DNA of 64,000 nt from Anaerolineales bacterium (GTDB taxonomy: Bacteria; Chloroflexota; Anaerolineae; Anaerolineales; UBA11579), in the NCBI GenBank assembly GCA_019637755.1, contig JAHBVC010000002.1, positions 591,027 through 655,026 of the forward strand, written 5' to 3'. The notes under the pieces are model-generated. The model had not been told where the DNA came from. It did not search any database and was given only the letters and a program-made list of their open reading frames with translations. Position 1 is the stretch's first letter; each line of letters starts with the position of its first letter. A program made the position numbers and the translations under genes. This document shows, piece after piece, positions 46,182 through 52,089 of the stretch.

Positions 46182-46991
46182 ATGAAATCGCTCAGCATCC
46201 TCGTTTTCCTCGGTACCCTTTCCGCACTTATCTTCGGAGCCATGTTCGCCATCAAACCCGTTTCGGCCCAAGCGGCCGCCCCCAGCGATCCGCCTGCCCC
46301 TCAAAGCGAGACAGTGCTCGCCCCGGTAACCGGCGCCGAGGCCCCCCAGAAGGGCGGCCCGGCCGCCGCTGACCCCGGTGCCGTGCTGGCCCAGGCTTTC
46401 GTGATCAACCTGCAGAAGGACCGCAGCGCCCCCGCCGTAGACACGACCCCCGTGGCGGCGGCTGAAAGCGCCGCGGCGCCGGCCCCTGCACAGGCCACCA
46501 CCTTGCAAAGCTTCGCCAGCTCGGTGAGCAACGGCAACGCCGGCCAGGTTGCCGGTATCTATGTCGAAGGTGTAATGGCCTATGGCGTTGCCAGCCAGGG
46601 CGGTAACGCCGCCTTCGTCAGCGAGCAGCCCAATGTGGTGACGCAGTTCGGCCTGGCCGCGCAGTACGGCAGCCAGGGCTTTCTGGCGCACAACTACCTG
46701 GCCGGCGGCGCCTTCGCCCAGATCAGCAACGGCCAGGTAATTACCCTGGTCTACGGGGATGGCAGCTCGCGTGATTTCCAAGTGACCGGTACGCAACGCT
46801 ACCAGGCCTTGTCGCCCGACTCCACCCAATCCGCCTTCGTTGACCTGAACAGCGGCGATCAACTCTCCGCTTCAAGCCTGTTTCACAAAGTGTATAACCA
46901 GGATAACGCCCTGGTGCTGCAGACCTGCATTGAGCGGGATGGCATCAGCACCTGGGGCCGCCTGTTCATTACCGCAGTCCCGCTTAGCTGA
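46182..46991 (+). CDS. Secreted protein with a divergent sortase-like domain
   Basis: 269 residues. A signal peptide ends near VSAQA (residue 31), then a Pro/Ala-rich linker to about 115. The C-terminal domain (about 120-269) has the order of a sortase: FLAHNYLAGGAF with His170 where sortases have the GHN/GHR histidine, strand-rich VITLVYGDGSSRDFQVT, then VLQTC with Cys249 (sortase TLxTC) and WGRLFITAVP with Arg260, 11 residues later. Those three are the sortase catalytic triad. A conventional sortase gene lies on the opposite strand downstream. Overall similarity is low, so it may be a sortase, a relative with a new role, or an inactive fold. It has its own terminator. Confidence 0.6.
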   Translation: MKSLSILVFLGTLSALIFGAMFAIKPVSAQAAAPSDPPAPQSETVLAPVTGAEAPQKGGPAAADPGAVLAQAFVINLQKDRSAPAVDTTPVAAAESAAAPAPAQATTLQSFASSVSNGNAGQVAGIYVEGVMAYGVASQGGNAAFVSEQPNVVTQFGLAAQYGSQGFLAHNYLAGGAFAQISNGQVITLVYGDGSSRDFQVTGTQRYQALSPDSTQSAFVDLNSGDQLSASSLFHKVYNQDNALVLQTCIERDGISTWGRLFITAVPLS

Positions 46992-47031: not shown

Positions 47032-47063
47032 AAAAATCCCCGCTTGAGGAGGCGGGGATTTTT
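47032..47063. terminator. Bidirectional terminator between the two sortase-like genes
   Basis: Twelve-base stem (47032-47043 with 47052-47063) bounded by five A and five T; lies between convergent genes. Confidence 0.85.
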
Positions 47064-47072
47064 CTTTGCCGG

Positions 47073-47828
47073 CTACGAGGTAGCCGGCGAGACAGGCACG
47101 GCGACGATCAGTACGCGGTGCGTGTTGCTCTCATACGGCCAGCAAGTAATCACCGTAAGGCGCTCGTCTTCGGTGGGCTGGATCCACTCGGCGTTGGCCA
47201 CGCGCACCTCCATCGGCTGGTTGCGCTCGGGTAAGACCGCGGTATACACCACGACATATTGAAAGCGCTGGCCGTTGGAGTAGACCTCGATCTCATCGCC
47301 TTTCTGCAAGCGATACAGATCGCGAAACACCTCGCCGTGTACATTATGGTGGCCATTGAGCACAGTATTGCCGGGCACGCCCAGGCCAGCTGAGGTTTGG
47401 TGCCAGCCGACGGCTCGGTAATCAGGAGCCAACCACTGCTGAAAGGTCTCGTCCTCGTACGACAGATCGATGGAACCAATCGGCACAATGCTGGCATCCA
47501 ATTCGATGGCGGGAATAATGATGCGATCCGGCACCTGGCCCACCGGGGTCTCGCCCTCAGCCAACGGCTGCGGCGTGGGGAAGCCATCTGGCATCACGCC
47601 TACTGAGACCAGGCTCGGATCGGCCTCGTGCCCCGCGGAGGAGTACACCGGCAGAAAGCCGGCTTGCTGGGCATCATCGGCCGCCAGGTCGATCGCCGGG
47701 GGCATAGTGGCGACATCAAAAACGCTCTTGCCTAGCGCGAAGACAATCACGGCCAAGCCAAGGAATACCAGCACAATGAACAGGGCATTGGATTCTTTTT
47801 TCGTGGGTTGTGGCGGGTACATATCCAT
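47073..47828 (-). CDS. Sortase (class D/E/F-like cysteine transpeptidase)
   Basis: 251 residues. One N-terminal membrane segment (about 15-34), then an extracellular sortase domain: His160 in VLNGHHNVHGEVF, Cys229 in LTVITCWPYESN and Arg238 in THRVLIVAVP. It would cleave a C-terminal sorting signal of a secreted protein and join it to a surface nucleophile. The nearest candidate substrate is the stalk protein encoded directly upstream on the same strand, which ends in IPITG plus a membrane segment. A hairpin lies between the two genes, so they may be transcribed separately. Confidence 0.88.
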   Translation of the reverse strand: MDMYPPQPTKKESNALFIVLVFLGLAVIVFALGKSVFDVATMPPAIDLAADDAQQAGFLPVYSSAGHEADPSLVSVGVMPDGFPTPQPLAEGETPVGQVPDRIIIPAIELDASIVPIGSIDLSYEDETFQQWLAPDYRAVGWHQTSAGLGVPGNTVLNGHHNVHGEVFRDLYRLQKGDEIEVYSNGQRFQYVVVYTAVLPERNQPMEVRVANAEWIQPTEDERLTVITCWPYESNTHRVLIVAVPVSPATS

Positions 47829-47937: not shown

Positions 47938-49629
47938 CTAGTCTTCATCCTCGTCTTCGTATTCATCTTCCTGAGCAGCGCGGTGCTGGCGGTCACGGTC
48001 AAGCTTCATGCCGATACCCAGCAGGATCAGTGCAAAGCCGAAGACACCGATGCCCAGGTTCAGGAACATGTTGTCACGGAAGATGGCCGGCAGGTCAATG
48101 CCCGTGATCGGGATGAGCACGCCCGGCGTGGGGCTGGGGGCTACCGTCGGCGTGGGCAGCTCGCCATTGCATAGGGTGCCGCTGTTGTTGTTGCTGAGCG
48201 ACTTCGACTGGCCATCGGCCGGGTCCATCCACATGATCGATACGGTGTTAGGCAGGGCACCATTCACCGGCGAGCCGAAGACGATCGTGCTGTTAGCCGG
48301 CACGGCGATCGGGCCACCCGAGGCGCTGCCACCCACCACCCACCACACAAAGGTGATCGGGTTGGGGTTGGCGTTGCTCACTTCCCAGCGCAGGTCACCC
48401 GGCTGAGCTTCGTTGGTGTTGACGATCTCGCCCGCCTGGTCGACACACAGGCCAACAAAGGTGATGCCATCGCCGGTGATCGGTACAAACACGGTGGGGG
48501 TAGCCGTGAAGGTGGCGGTATTGGTGGGCGTATTGGTGGCCGGCTCCGTATTGGTCGGCGTCAGGCTGGCCAGCAGGGTGCCGGTAGCGGTGATCGTCGG
48601 GGAGGCCGTGCCGGTAAAGGTGGGCGTGAAGGTGGCCGTAAACGTAGCCGTCGAGGTAAAGGTCGCCGTATTGGTCGCGGTGAAGGTTGCCGTAAAGGTC
48701 GGCGTGTTCGACGGCGTGCTGGTGTTGGTGAAGGTGGCGCTAGGCGTCAGCGTACCCGTGGGAGTAATGCTGGGCGTCAGCGTAATCGTCGGCGTATCCG
48801 TAGGGGTGGGCGTCGGCGTATCCGTAAAGGTTGCCGTAGCCGTGGCCGTGTAGGTAGCCGTCGGGGTGGGTGTATCCGTGAAGGTCGCGGTGGCGGTGAA
48901 TGTCGCCGTGTTGGACGGCGTCAGCGTCGCCGTAAAGGTCGGCGTGTAGGATGGCGTCAGGGTTGCGGTGGCCGTCGGCGTATCCGATGGGGTCAGGGTC
49001 GCCGTGAAAGTGGGCGTATTGGACGGCGTAAAGGTCGCCGTATACGTCGGCGTGCTGGATGGCGTAAAGGTCGCCGTGTGCGTGGGCGTGTTCGACGGCG
49101 TGAAGGTGGCCGTGTACGATGGCGTCAACGACGGCGTCAACGTAGCGGTATTGGACGGAGTGAGTGACGGCGTGAAGGTCGCCGTGTTGGATGGCGTCAG
49201 CGAAGGCGTGAGCGAGGGGGTCAGCGAAGCCGTCAACGAGGGGGTCAGTGAAGGCGTCAGCGACGGAGTCAGCGAGGGGGTGGGCGTCTTGATGGTGTAC
49301 TTGCCCTCATCACGACAGTCGACAGTGCCAATTACCTTCCAGGTCCAGGTGGTGGTGGGCGGAGTGATGGTGCCAATCTGGCGCCAGGGGGAGTTGCCGT
49401 TCAGCGCGGGCACATTAAAGCGCGCCACCTCAGACCCGTTAATCTCTACACGCGCCTGCTGGGCAACTTCATAGATGCCAGACATGTTCTCAACTTCCAC
49501 GGAGCCAGTTTCGGTTACACGGAAGTTGTAACGGCCATTGCAGTCCCAGGCGCGCGCCACACTGTTGGCGGCGGCGGCGACCACGGCCACGATGACTACC
49601 GCAAAAAGAAATTTACGCACAGTACTCAT
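47938..49629 (-). CDS. Surface stalk protein with Thr/Ser/Pro repeats and IPITG sorting signal
   Basis: 563 residues from ATG 49629 (a GTG two codons earlier is possible). Signal peptide at 1-30 (FLFAVVIVAVVAAAANSVARA), then a small globular domain to about 115. From about 118 to 385 the chain is almost only T, P, S, A, F and N in TPSLTPSL and FTPSNTPTFTAT units, a probable extended, perhaps glycosylated stalk. A second folded domain follows VFVPITGDG. The C-terminus has VLIPITG, a membrane segment (about 520-542) and the tail RDRQHRAAQ plus an acidic EDEYEDEDED. This is a sortase-type sorting signal with IPITG in place of LPxTG and an unusual acidic end. It starts two bases after the response regulator stop. 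Confidence 0.85.
   Translation of the reverse strand: MSTVRKFLFAVVIVAVVAAAANSVARAWDCNGRYNFRVTETGSVEVENMSGIYEVAQQARVEINGSEVARFNVPALNGNSPWRQIGTITPPTTTWTWKVIGTVDCRDEGKYTIKTPTPSLTPSLTPSLTPSLTASLTPSLTPSLTPSNTATFTPSLTPSNTATLTPSLTPSYTATFTPSNTPTHTATFTPSSTPTYTATFTPSNTPTFTATLTPSDTPTATATLTPSYTPTFTATLTPSNTATFTATATFTDTPTPTATYTATATATFTDTPTPTPTDTPTITLTPSITPTGTLTPSATFTNTSTPSNTPTFTATFTATNTATFTSTATFTATFTPTFTGTASPTITATGTLLASLTPTNTEPATNTPTNTATFTATPTVFVPITGDGITFVGLCVDQAGEIVNTNEAQPGDLRWEVSNANPNPITFVWWVVGGSASGGPIAVPANSTIVFGSPVNGALPNTVSIMWMDPADGQSKSLSNNNSGTLCNGELPTPTVAPSPTPGVLIPITGIDLPAIFRDNMFLNLGIGVFGFALILLGIGMKLDRDRQHRAAQEDEYEDEDED
48500..49290 (-). repeat. Degenerate tandem repeat encoding the Thr/Ser/Pro stalk
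   Basis: About 790 bases of short related units (GGCGT.AAGGT.GCCGT type on the plus strand, period mostly 12, 24 or 36 bases). Such arrays are prone to length change by slippage. The simple composition keeps several frames open on the other strand. Confidence 0.85.
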
Positions 49630-49631
49630 AC

Positions 49632-50393
49632 TCACTCACTTGCCAGCTGGTAGCCAAAGCGGGTCTTGTTTAAGATCAACGCCGGGCGGCTGGGGTCCTT
49701 CTCGATTTTTTGACGCAGCAAATATACGATCCACTTAATGCGCTCGCGGATCTTGTCGTTGTCTTCGCCCCACACCTCGCGCGCCAGCGTCTCATAGGAA
49801 ACGGGCTTGGGGTGTTGGCGCGCCAGAATTTCAAGCACGGCGAACTCGCGCGGGGTCAGATCGATCAACTGATCGCGCAGGGTTACCTGGTGGCTCTGCA
49901 TATCCACGGCCAGGCCCTGATCGGGGAAGACCAGCACCGAAGCCGGCTTGGCCGGGCCGGAGCGGCGCAGCGCCGCTTCGATACGCGCCACAACTTCATC
50001 GCCCACAAAGGGCTTGGAGACATAATCATCGGCGCCCTCTTTGAGGCCGCGCACGATGTTCTCTTTTTGGCTGAGCGCCGACAGGATGATGATCGGCGCG
50101 TCGCTGATGGCGCGCAACTGGCTCAAAGTCTCCCAGCCATCCATTTCGGGCATCATCAGATCGAGCAGCACAATGCTGGGGTTGGTGTCCATCCACTTGC
50201 GCAGCGCCTGCTTGCCATCAGAGGCACCGACTACGTTCATGCCGGCGCGGCGCAGGGTGAGCTTGAGCAGATTGAGCGTATCGGGATCATCCTCAACCAC
50301 CATCACGACGCGCTGCGAGCCGAGCTCTTGCACGGCATCCAAATCCAGACCAGCAGCGGTGGTATTGAGTTCCTTTTCTTCAGCCAACAGCAC
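49632..50393 (-). CDS. OmpR/PhoB-family response regulator
   Basis: 253 residues from a GTG at 50393 (no ATG nearby). The receiver domain (about 28-142) has the acidic pair in VVEDDPDT, phospho-acceptor Asp in VLLDLMMPEMDG, Thr/Ser switch in IILSALS and Lys in VSKPF. The winged-helix domain (about 155-252) includes LTPREFAVLEILARQHPKPVSYETLAREVWGE and the wing NKTRFGYQL. No histidine kinase is adjacent. The next gene downstream, the stalk protein, begins two bases after its stop, so the regulator and the surface protein form an operon. Its promoter region carries an inverted repeat and a CTAAC box, likely for self-regulation. Confidence 0.93.
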   Translation of the reverse strand: MLLAEEKELNTTAAGLDLDAVQELGSQRVVMVVEDDPDTLNLLKLTLRRAGMNVVGASDGKQALRKWMDTNPSIVLLDLMMPEMDGWETLSQLRAISDAPIIILSALSQKENIVRGLKEGADDYVSKPFVGDEVVARIEAALRRSGPAKPASVLVFPDQGLAVDMQSHQVTLRDQLIDLTPREFAVLEILARQHPKPVSYETLAREVWGEDNDKIRERIKWIVYLLRQKIEKDPSRPALILNKTRFGYQLASE

Positions 50394-50598: not shown

Positions 50599-52089
50599 CT
50601 ACTCAGAAAGCTCTACGCTAGACGAGCCACCGCCCCCAAAAACGACGTCATCATCATAGTTAATGGTAATCCGCCCACCGCCCGTAACGAGAAAGCGGCC
50701 AGCAATCATCTGCCCATTTACTGTCTTGTTACTACCCGAACCAGTCGAGGCAATCCGTGCTTTAGGGGCATAGATGGTACCGGTCATGGAAAGCACCCCG
50801 GCCCCGGTTACAGTAAGGTCATTAGTGTTAGCACGCCCCATAAAAAAGGCCAAGCCCGAATAAGGCCCGCTGGTAGGCGCTTTAGTAGTCAGCGCGGCGC
50901 CACCATCAATCGTAATCGCCCCCTTGTTAACATAGATCATTCCGTTCAACGTACGCGAAGCCGCGCTATCGCCACCAACATTAAAGCTACCATTCTCTAC
51001 ATGAAATAGTACGCCGGAGCTGCCCGCGGTGAGATTGGCCTGAGCGCTACTGGTAATGGTTACATTGCCACTGGCGACATAAATACTTACACCTGTCCCT
51101 GTGGGCATATTCGTACTTGGCCCGCTGATCGTAAAGTTACCATTGGTCACATAATACAAACCGGGTTGCATCGTCACAGGAACATCCGTGGAGATATCGA
51201 TACTACGATAACGGCCAGGATAAATGGTGACCCCAGTGGAGCACCAAGCCCGCCCCGTACCGATACTCAAGTTGCCGTTGGCATCCAATACCCCACCACA
51301 GGTGCCATGGATCGTGGGCGTGGCTGGAGCGCCAGGCTGCGCGGGAATGGGTGGAGTAGCCACATCTTCCATTGGATCGCCACGCGGGGTACGCCCCGTC
51401 TCTGGCGGCCAAGGCTTGATCCACAGAGAAGGGTTGCCATAAGGAATCACCCACGAGGGCAAGCTCACCCCACCCACCAACTGAACCCACTCCGCAACGA
51501 TGCGTGCTCCACCGGGGCAACCGCTGCCATCCCCGCCATCCAGGAATAGAGCGCTCGAGTTTGAGGATTCGACAAATACGCCACCATCCACTACACGCAG
51601 GCACCCACTGCTTGGCCCGTAGACCACGTTGTCATTATTGGGATCGAGGGCGATCAAGCCATTGCCCCAGCCCACCGCCCCGCCGCCGGGCTTGCAGCGC
51701 GCCACGGCGCGGGCCTTGACTTGGGGGGTGCCGGAGTACACCAGGCGCCCTAGCGTCAGGGGCAGGCGGCTGGTGATCGTAACAGTCACATACTCGCTAC
51801 CGGAGGGGTTTTGTACACTCACGGTAACATCTGGCGGCGCCGCGGTAAAGCCGTTTTGCGCTGCCGATGCCACCGCCGCCGAGACCACGTTGGTGCTATT
51901 GCACAAGGCAAACGCGCCGGCCAGCGCGGCATTGTCGGCGGCGTTCTGCACCGAGCGCCGCTGGCTATAGAGCCGGCCGCCGTCAATGGCCACGCCGGTG
52001 ATACCCAGCAGGGCCACAAAGACCAGCACCAGTAAAACGATTACTTGGCCGCGTTCGTGGGTGGAAGAAGGGGCGGGCTTCATGCACAT
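50599..52089 (-). CDS. TadE/TadG-type secreted protein with beta-solenoid-like C-terminus
   Basis: 496 residues. The N-terminus is the Tad/Flp pilus-assembly type: short basic start, RGQVIVLLVLVFVALLGITGVAIDGGRLYSQRRSVQNAADNAALAGA with the conserved Asp/Gly and QNAADAAALAGA-like sequence, giving one membrane segment with the bulk outside. From about 270 on, the chain is built of short repeated strands rich in G, N, S, T (FTISGPS, VTITSSAQANLTAG, FNVGGDS, ITIDGGAAL), as in pectate-lyase-like or bactofilin-like solenoids. No other tad or flp gene is in the window. A ribosome binding site AAGG lies upstream. Confidence 0.8.
   Translation of the reverse strand: MCMKPAPSSTHERGQVIVLLVLVFVALLGITGVAIDGGRLYSQRRSVQNAADNAALAGAFALCNSTNVVSAAVASAAQNGFTAAPPDVTVSVQNPSGSEYVTVTITSRLPLTLGRLVYSGTPQVKARAVARCKPGGGAVGWGNGLIALDPNNDNVVYGPSSGCLRVVDGGVFVESSNSSALFLDGGDGSGCPGGARIVAEWVQLVGGVSLPSWVIPYGNPSLWIKPWPPETGRTPRGDPMEDVATPPIPAQPGAPATPTIHGTCGGVLDANGNLSIGTGRAWCSTGVTIYPGRYRSIDISTDVPVTMQPGLYYVTNGNFTISGPSTNMPTGTGVSIYVASGNVTITSSAQANLTAGSSGVLFHVENGSFNVGGDSAASRTLNGMIYVNKGAITIDGGAALTTKAPTSGPYSGLAFFMGRANTNDLTVTGAGVLSMTGTIYAPKARIASTGSGSNKTVNGQMIAGRFLVTGGGRITINYDDDVVFGGGGSSSVELSE

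Follow-up and report, generated by a model that had tools for sequence, protein, structure and literature searches.

Sortases, which attach proteins to the surface of bacteria, are model transpeptidases and tools for protein engineering, and they normally recognize a sorting signal at the C-terminal end of their cargo. In the window (the whole stretch of 64,000 nucleotides that we analyzed, from an Anaerolineales bacterium), the gene for a conventional sortase faces the gene for a secreted protein of 269 amino acids. Is the secreted protein a sortase as well? And if so, what does it act on, and how is it controlled? The gene and its parts are:

46182–46991, + strand: sortase_YLP (NF053836) gene, 269 amino acids; NF053836 E = 2e-65, 220 bits vs. 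a cut-off of 125; sortase fold
46182–46268, + strand: signal peptide, residues 1–29, cleaved between VSA and QA; predicted from sequence, with a helix at residues 3–21 in the model
46269–46502, + strand: Pro/Ala-rich disordered linker, residues 30–107; AlphaFold2 pLDDT 43–61 over most of it
46320–46334, + strand: N-terminal sorting-like motif APVTG, residues 47–51; P.TG and [ILVFA]P.TG were counted in relatives
46503–46988, + strand: sortase domain, residues 108–269; block-mean pLDDT 93–98 from residue 111; VIA Z = 13.0
46689–46691, + strand: codon for catalytic His170; kept in 111/111 relatives
46926–46928, + strand: codon for catalytic Cys249; kept in 111/111 relatives
46959–46961, + strand: codon for catalytic Arg260; kept in 108/111 relatives, and the remainder have WGLR

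Family, fold, and active site

A sequence-only reading of this locus had described the protein as a highly divergent, sortase-like neighbor of a conventional sortase, with His170 (in FLAHNY), Cys249 (in VLQTC), and Arg260 (in WGRLFITAVP) in sortase order and little else that matches. The family models, the predicted fold, and the conservation of the triad all agree with this description, except that “little else” holds for Pfam but not for NCBIfam. The profile search that had been proposed as a check places the protein in NF053836 (“sortase_YLP, putative sortase”), with 220.3 bits over residues 83–268 and a curated cut-off of 125. So the protein is divergent, yet it belongs to a family that was already catalogued. 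The model gives this family a name alone, and we found no published function for NF053836 in the open literature. In Pfam, on the other hand, there were no matches up to E = 10. Among the NCBIfam sortase models, those for classes A–F did not match at E up to 10, and NF053836 alone did. A sequence profile search of the PDB found nothing relevant. When 41 NF053836 relatives were considered individually, 29 matched PF04203 (best E = 2e-7), and a few of them exceeded the gathering score.

The proposed structure prediction gave a sortase as well. AlphaFold2, with 75 relatives as input, predicts eight strands in the order typical of sortases. His170 follows strand 4, and strands 7 and 8 hold Cys249 and Arg260, respectively. 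A Foldseek search of the PDB with the model gave sortases for all of the top matches (E = 2e-6). In a comparison by VIA, the best match was SrtC1 (3re9), with Z = 13.0 over 117 residues, and Z was about 12 for SrtE and SrtA; the absence of other sortase classes from VIA's match list carries no meaning. SrtE1 from Streptomyces coelicolor (PDB 5cuw; PMC5148588) shares the fold with the window protein. SrtE1 is anchored by a transmembrane helix and has LAXTG substrates, while the window protein lies outside the class A–F models.

Across an alignment of 111 distinct relatives, the His and the Cys are invariant, and the Arg is kept in 108. (In L169, L170, and L177, which are from one genus, the catalytic Arg has moved by one residue, to give WGLR instead of WGRL.) The sequence-only reading could have been overturned by a different fold or by a Cys or Arg that varies among homologs; instead, a sortase barrel is predicted and both residues are conserved. 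That sortase_YLP is a pseudoenzyme, or a secreted protein of another kind that retains H, C, and R by chance, is very improbable: the lack of a Pfam match and the displaced Arg in three relatives might suggest it, but the His and Cys do not vary and the predicted fold is that of a sortase. Overall, the sequence and the model give good support to a real, exported, divergent sortase of NF053836, and it is probably enzymatically active.

The cleavable-type signal and the Pro/Ala linker that had been read from the sequence are both apparent: a hydrophobic start is followed by the VSA/QA site (an AXA-type site, judged by eye) and then by the linker, from about residue 30 to 107. Judged by eye, the N-terminus varies within the family: it looks like a signal peptide (as in the window), like the start of a lipoprotein, or like a TPR region with a transmembrane helix. 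The lipoprotein-like starts, with a Cys after the hydrophobic core and no site for signal peptidase I, are in L129, L151, L160, and L162. Another member of the family is encoded about 24 kb away in the window's genome, with a TPR-like N-terminus, a transmembrane helix, and then the same domain. Paralogs of this TPR type (L002:1114–2262, which is C2:661481–662233 in the window's own genome, and L180, L181, and L182) have a transmembrane helix, a Thr/Pro linker, LLQPVTG, and the sortase domain.

In a sample of the phylum Chloroflexota, we found NF053836 in 10 of 251 genomes, and all ten are Anaerolineales. None of 14 control genomes had it. Within the Anaerolineales, it is present in 154 of 400 genomes; named carriers include Longilinea, Pelolinea, Thermanaerothrix, and Levilinea. 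At two loci, a small SRP RNA gene lies directly 3' of sortase_YLP on the same strand (L007:1317–1415 and L008:1310–1408, both on the – strand).

The facing sortase and its neighbors

On the other side of a shared terminator-like repeat are:

47032–47063, no strand: terminator-like inverted repeat common to both convergent genes, AAAAATCCCCGC-TTGAGGAG-GCGGGGATTTTT
47073–47828, – strand: SRT, a conventional sortase of 251 amino acids with an N-terminal transmembrane helix (TM); PF04203 E = 2e-23
47646–47660, – strand: GFLPV after SRT's TM; F[LVI]P[LVMIYF] in stand-alone SRTs
47938–49635, – strand: Thr/Pro-rich surface protein, 565 amino acids, with a C-terminal LIPITG, TM, and charged tail; homologs hold the same position
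48099–48113, – strand: IPITG in the C-terminal sorting signal of the Thr/Pro-rich protein, from a pattern scan
49632–50393, – strand: OmpR-type response regulator (Response_reg and Trans_reg_C), the first gene of the block; position conserved

As had been read from the sequence, the two genes are face to face across what looks like a terminator, with their stop codons about 80 bases apart. Between them is a single inverted repeat, perfect over 12 bp and flanked by A/T (we read it directly; the scanner caught part of it). SRT's match to PF04203 bears out the claim that this neighbor is a conventional sortase. Its best match among several sortase classes is to the class E model (NF033747), at 52.2 bits, which is below the cut-off of 160. 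Shortly after SRT's TM is a conserved GFLP[VLM], which is possibly a lid: F[LVI]P[LVMIYF] is present in 26 of 33 stand-alone SRTs, and 0.8 would be expected by shuffling.

The order of this block is the same in the window and in the genus: a response regulator, a Thr/Pro-rich protein with LIP[IV]TG, a TM, and a charged tail, then SRT, and then sortase_YLP facing it. (A putative Tad/TadE-G-like protein at 50599–52089 on the – strand, just upstream of the response regulator, is also kept in the genus.) The core of the block recurs in other families of the Anaerolineales, and LIP[IV]TG substrates adjoin SRT at most convergent loci. The Thr/Pro-rich protein is likely to be SRT's substrate. In the window's own genome, the pattern [ILVMF]P[ILVMF]TG is not enriched (33 matches vs. 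77 for the reversed pattern), and the Thr/Pro-rich protein alone has a C-terminal signal of this form.

Whenever an SRT-type sortase is near a member of the family, the two are convergent (37/37). In 29 of these 37 cases, SRT is a stand-alone protein within 1 kb; in 4 cases it is 2–4 kb away; and in the other 4 cases it is the C-terminal domain of a giant protein. Giant surface proteins of this type (about 500 to 4000 amino acids), with LPxTG and then, close by, a C-terminal PF04203 domain, are widespread in the Anaerolineales (L139:6683–10618, L152, L255, L257, and L301–L313). They combine cargo, motif, and sortase in one chain. Their order of sorting motif, short linker, and sortase domain is the layout of sortase_YLP, but in the giant proteins the sortase is fused to the cargo, whereas sortase_YLP stands alone.

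Do the two sortases form a two-enzyme system for surface assembly, as had been suggested? The convergent pair, together with the LIP[IV]TG protein, is kept across several genera, and such a system is plausible. It is not established, because a stand-alone SRT adjoins sortase_YLP in just 29 of 134 distinct relatives, and many of the other relatives are alone under c-di-GMP riboswitches. Perhaps the convergent pairing is inherited gene order and nothing else, and each sortase has its own substrates. The low count of adjacent SRTs and the many orphan genes under riboswitches would fit with this, and the pair is not an operon. However, three or more families of the Anaerolineales show the convergent order, also with neighbors whose sortase is fused to a giant protein, so we consider separate systems to be somewhat unlikely.

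A sorting-like motif before the catalytic domain

The linker of sortase_YLP includes APVTG (residues 47–51), without a TM after it, so that it lacks the TM and charged tail of a C-terminal LPXTG signal. Similar motifs are common in the family. P-x-T-G lies directly after the signal peptide in 48 of 111 relatives, while shuffling the same stretches gives an expectation of 2.9. [ILVFA]P.TG occurs no more than 45 residues from the signal core in 33 of 121 family members, as compared to 1 of 230 other exported-looking ORFs from the same loci. (Start codons and signal cores were picked by a simple script, so individual N-termini may be off.) In the window's own family of genomes, the linker is barely alignable, yet [AT]P[VLT]TG is kept in the members that were compared. 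The commonest form, IPVTG, is identical to the C-terminal signal of SRT's neighbor, although a sorting signal would be expected at the other end of the protein. After the T, G predominates, but A, S, K, R, T, and I also occur. There is no recognizable N-terminal motif in 81 of 134 relatives. In AlphaFold2 models of the window protein and of a homolog from Pelolinea, the motif is not docked in the groove (pLDDT 43–57).

At some loci, the N-terminal motif is of another type, and it matches the neighbor's tail. At six loci from three genera (g189, g214, and g226), the convergent neighbor is a large protein that ends in LPxT[GS]...YLPLxx, and at all six, the N-terminus of sortase_YLP has YLP or FLP rather than PxTG alone. 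Among 811 ORFs with 300 or more amino acids, 7 have tails with LPxTG...YLP, and all 7 adjoin sortase_YLP genes of the YLP type. On the tree, the switch to YLP represents 2–3 independent events, all concordant, which is too few for significance. (For the tree test, we recoded L051 and L059, which really have LPVTG/IPQTG, and L159, whose YLP is inside the signal peptide.) YLPL[VI] anywhere in the genomes is not enriched together with NF053836, so the unrestricted pattern is uninformative, and the C-terminal form alone is informative. We did not find a YLP tail in the window's own genome. Exported proteins that end in [IV]YLPL[VI]x[RK], with or without an upstream LPxTG, are encoded at L316, L317, L318, L320, L321, and L322–L351. 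This ending is possibly a C-terminal surface signal of the Anaerolineae.

The main rival explanation for the motif is that the neighboring SRT cleaves it in trans, between T and G, which would release or activate sortase_YLP and place its role downstream of SRT. The motif is the same as the LIPVTG signal of SRT's neighbor, and it is mostly missing from lineages that have giant-fused sortases alone. Also, a stand-alone SRT is present in 23 of 26 genomes with the motif, as compared to 17 of 34 genomes without it (P = 0.002, Fisher exact test). But independent pairs on the tree do not support this association once relatedness is allowed for, so we do not rely on it. Furthermore, the motif is kept without a stand-alone SRT in G252, G463, and G565, the P1' residue may be K, R, T, or I, and at the YLP-type loci, which have no adjacent SRT, the motif matches the tail in the same way. 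Cleavage by SRT therefore seems unlikely.

Alternatively, the motif could be a localization or docking tag for a third component, such as a receptor in the cell wall or S-layer, and the enzyme would be an ordinary sortase. Exported proteins without LPxTG can have YLP tails, which may mean that YLP serves this group as a general tag for surface retention. On the other hand, the same position has LPxTG in one set of proteins and YLP in another, and each matches the local substrate. We view a tag as quite improbable.

The motif is most simply explained as a tethered pseudo-substrate or a site of self-processing, because it is in cis, it is tolerant at P1', and it matches the cargo even without an adjacent SRT. 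(If the motif binds without obligatory cleavage, then a varied residue after the T is expected.) We infer the substrate of sortase_YLP, its partnership with SRT, and the role of the motif as follows. Once exported, the enzyme would form a thioester between Cys249 and a sorting motif, which would be IP[IV]TG in the window's genome and LPxTG...YLP elsewhere. It would then transfer the surface protein onto an acceptor and act alongside SRT as a second enzyme; where SRT is absent, it would be the dedicated enzyme. The N-terminal motif would be a tethered copy of the signal that docks in the enzyme's own groove, as a pseudo-substrate lid or as a self-processing site, and it would track the tail of the substrate as the specificity changes. 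We give roughly even chances to an active, exported second sortase in which a copy of the sorting motif, displayed on the N-terminal linker, docks onto the enzyme itself.

The lids of class C sortases are of the DP[F/W/Y] type. In the class C pilin sortases (3re9, 3tbe), as in sortase_YLP, a cis element precedes the catalytic domain, but the class C lid is not a copy of a sorting signal, and the linker of sortase_YLP is long and disordered. A precedent for self-docking is SrtE1, where residues of the N-terminal linker were modeled in the protein's own active site, and a role as a lid was suggested (PMC5148588). The SrtE1 residues are AQA, where the linker of the window protein has a copy of a sorting motif instead.

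Riboswitches and what the family may do

We searched for riboswitches with Rfam and with a model that was built from the Rfam matches. Of 131 distinct family genes, 60 have a c-di-GMP-I riboswitch immediately upstream, and 44 of these have two aptamers in tandem. (Loci with riboswitches include L006–L011, L014, L018, L029, L031, L039, L054–L057, L127–L158, and L192–L263, among others.) The riboswitches are upstream of all 6 genes beside YLP-tail proteins and all 4 genes beside fused sortases, but of none of the 29 genes that are paired with a stand-alone SRT, and there is none at the window's locus. This contrast is strong by counts (P = 8e-10) but involves few independent lineages. A giant protein with a YLP tail can be preceded by a c-di-GMP-I aptamer of its own (L320:10701–10779, L317:12493–12572, and L172:10758–10833). 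Since the YLP-tail protein of g189 has its own aptamer, sortase_YLP and its presumed cargo look co-regulated. In Clostridioides difficile, the known links to riboswitches concern the substrates of the sortase (PMC6200980).

Our analysis thus adds an N-terminal motif, a partner, and a link to riboswitches to what was known of NF053836. More broadly, we suggest, tentatively and at somewhat less than even odds, that the motif co-evolves with the signal of the substrate and controls the enzyme in cis, and that many members of the family are also switched by tandem riboswitches. If so, a copy of the signal at the enzyme's own N-terminus, matched to the cargo, would offer a handle on how the specificity of sortases evolves and on how they control themselves.

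Anaerolineales form filaments and are common in bioreactors. If our proposal is correct, then they have a surface-display system in which the sortase itself is under c-di-GMP riboswitches, and the tandem riboswitches would tie covalent display at the surface to a biofilm signal.
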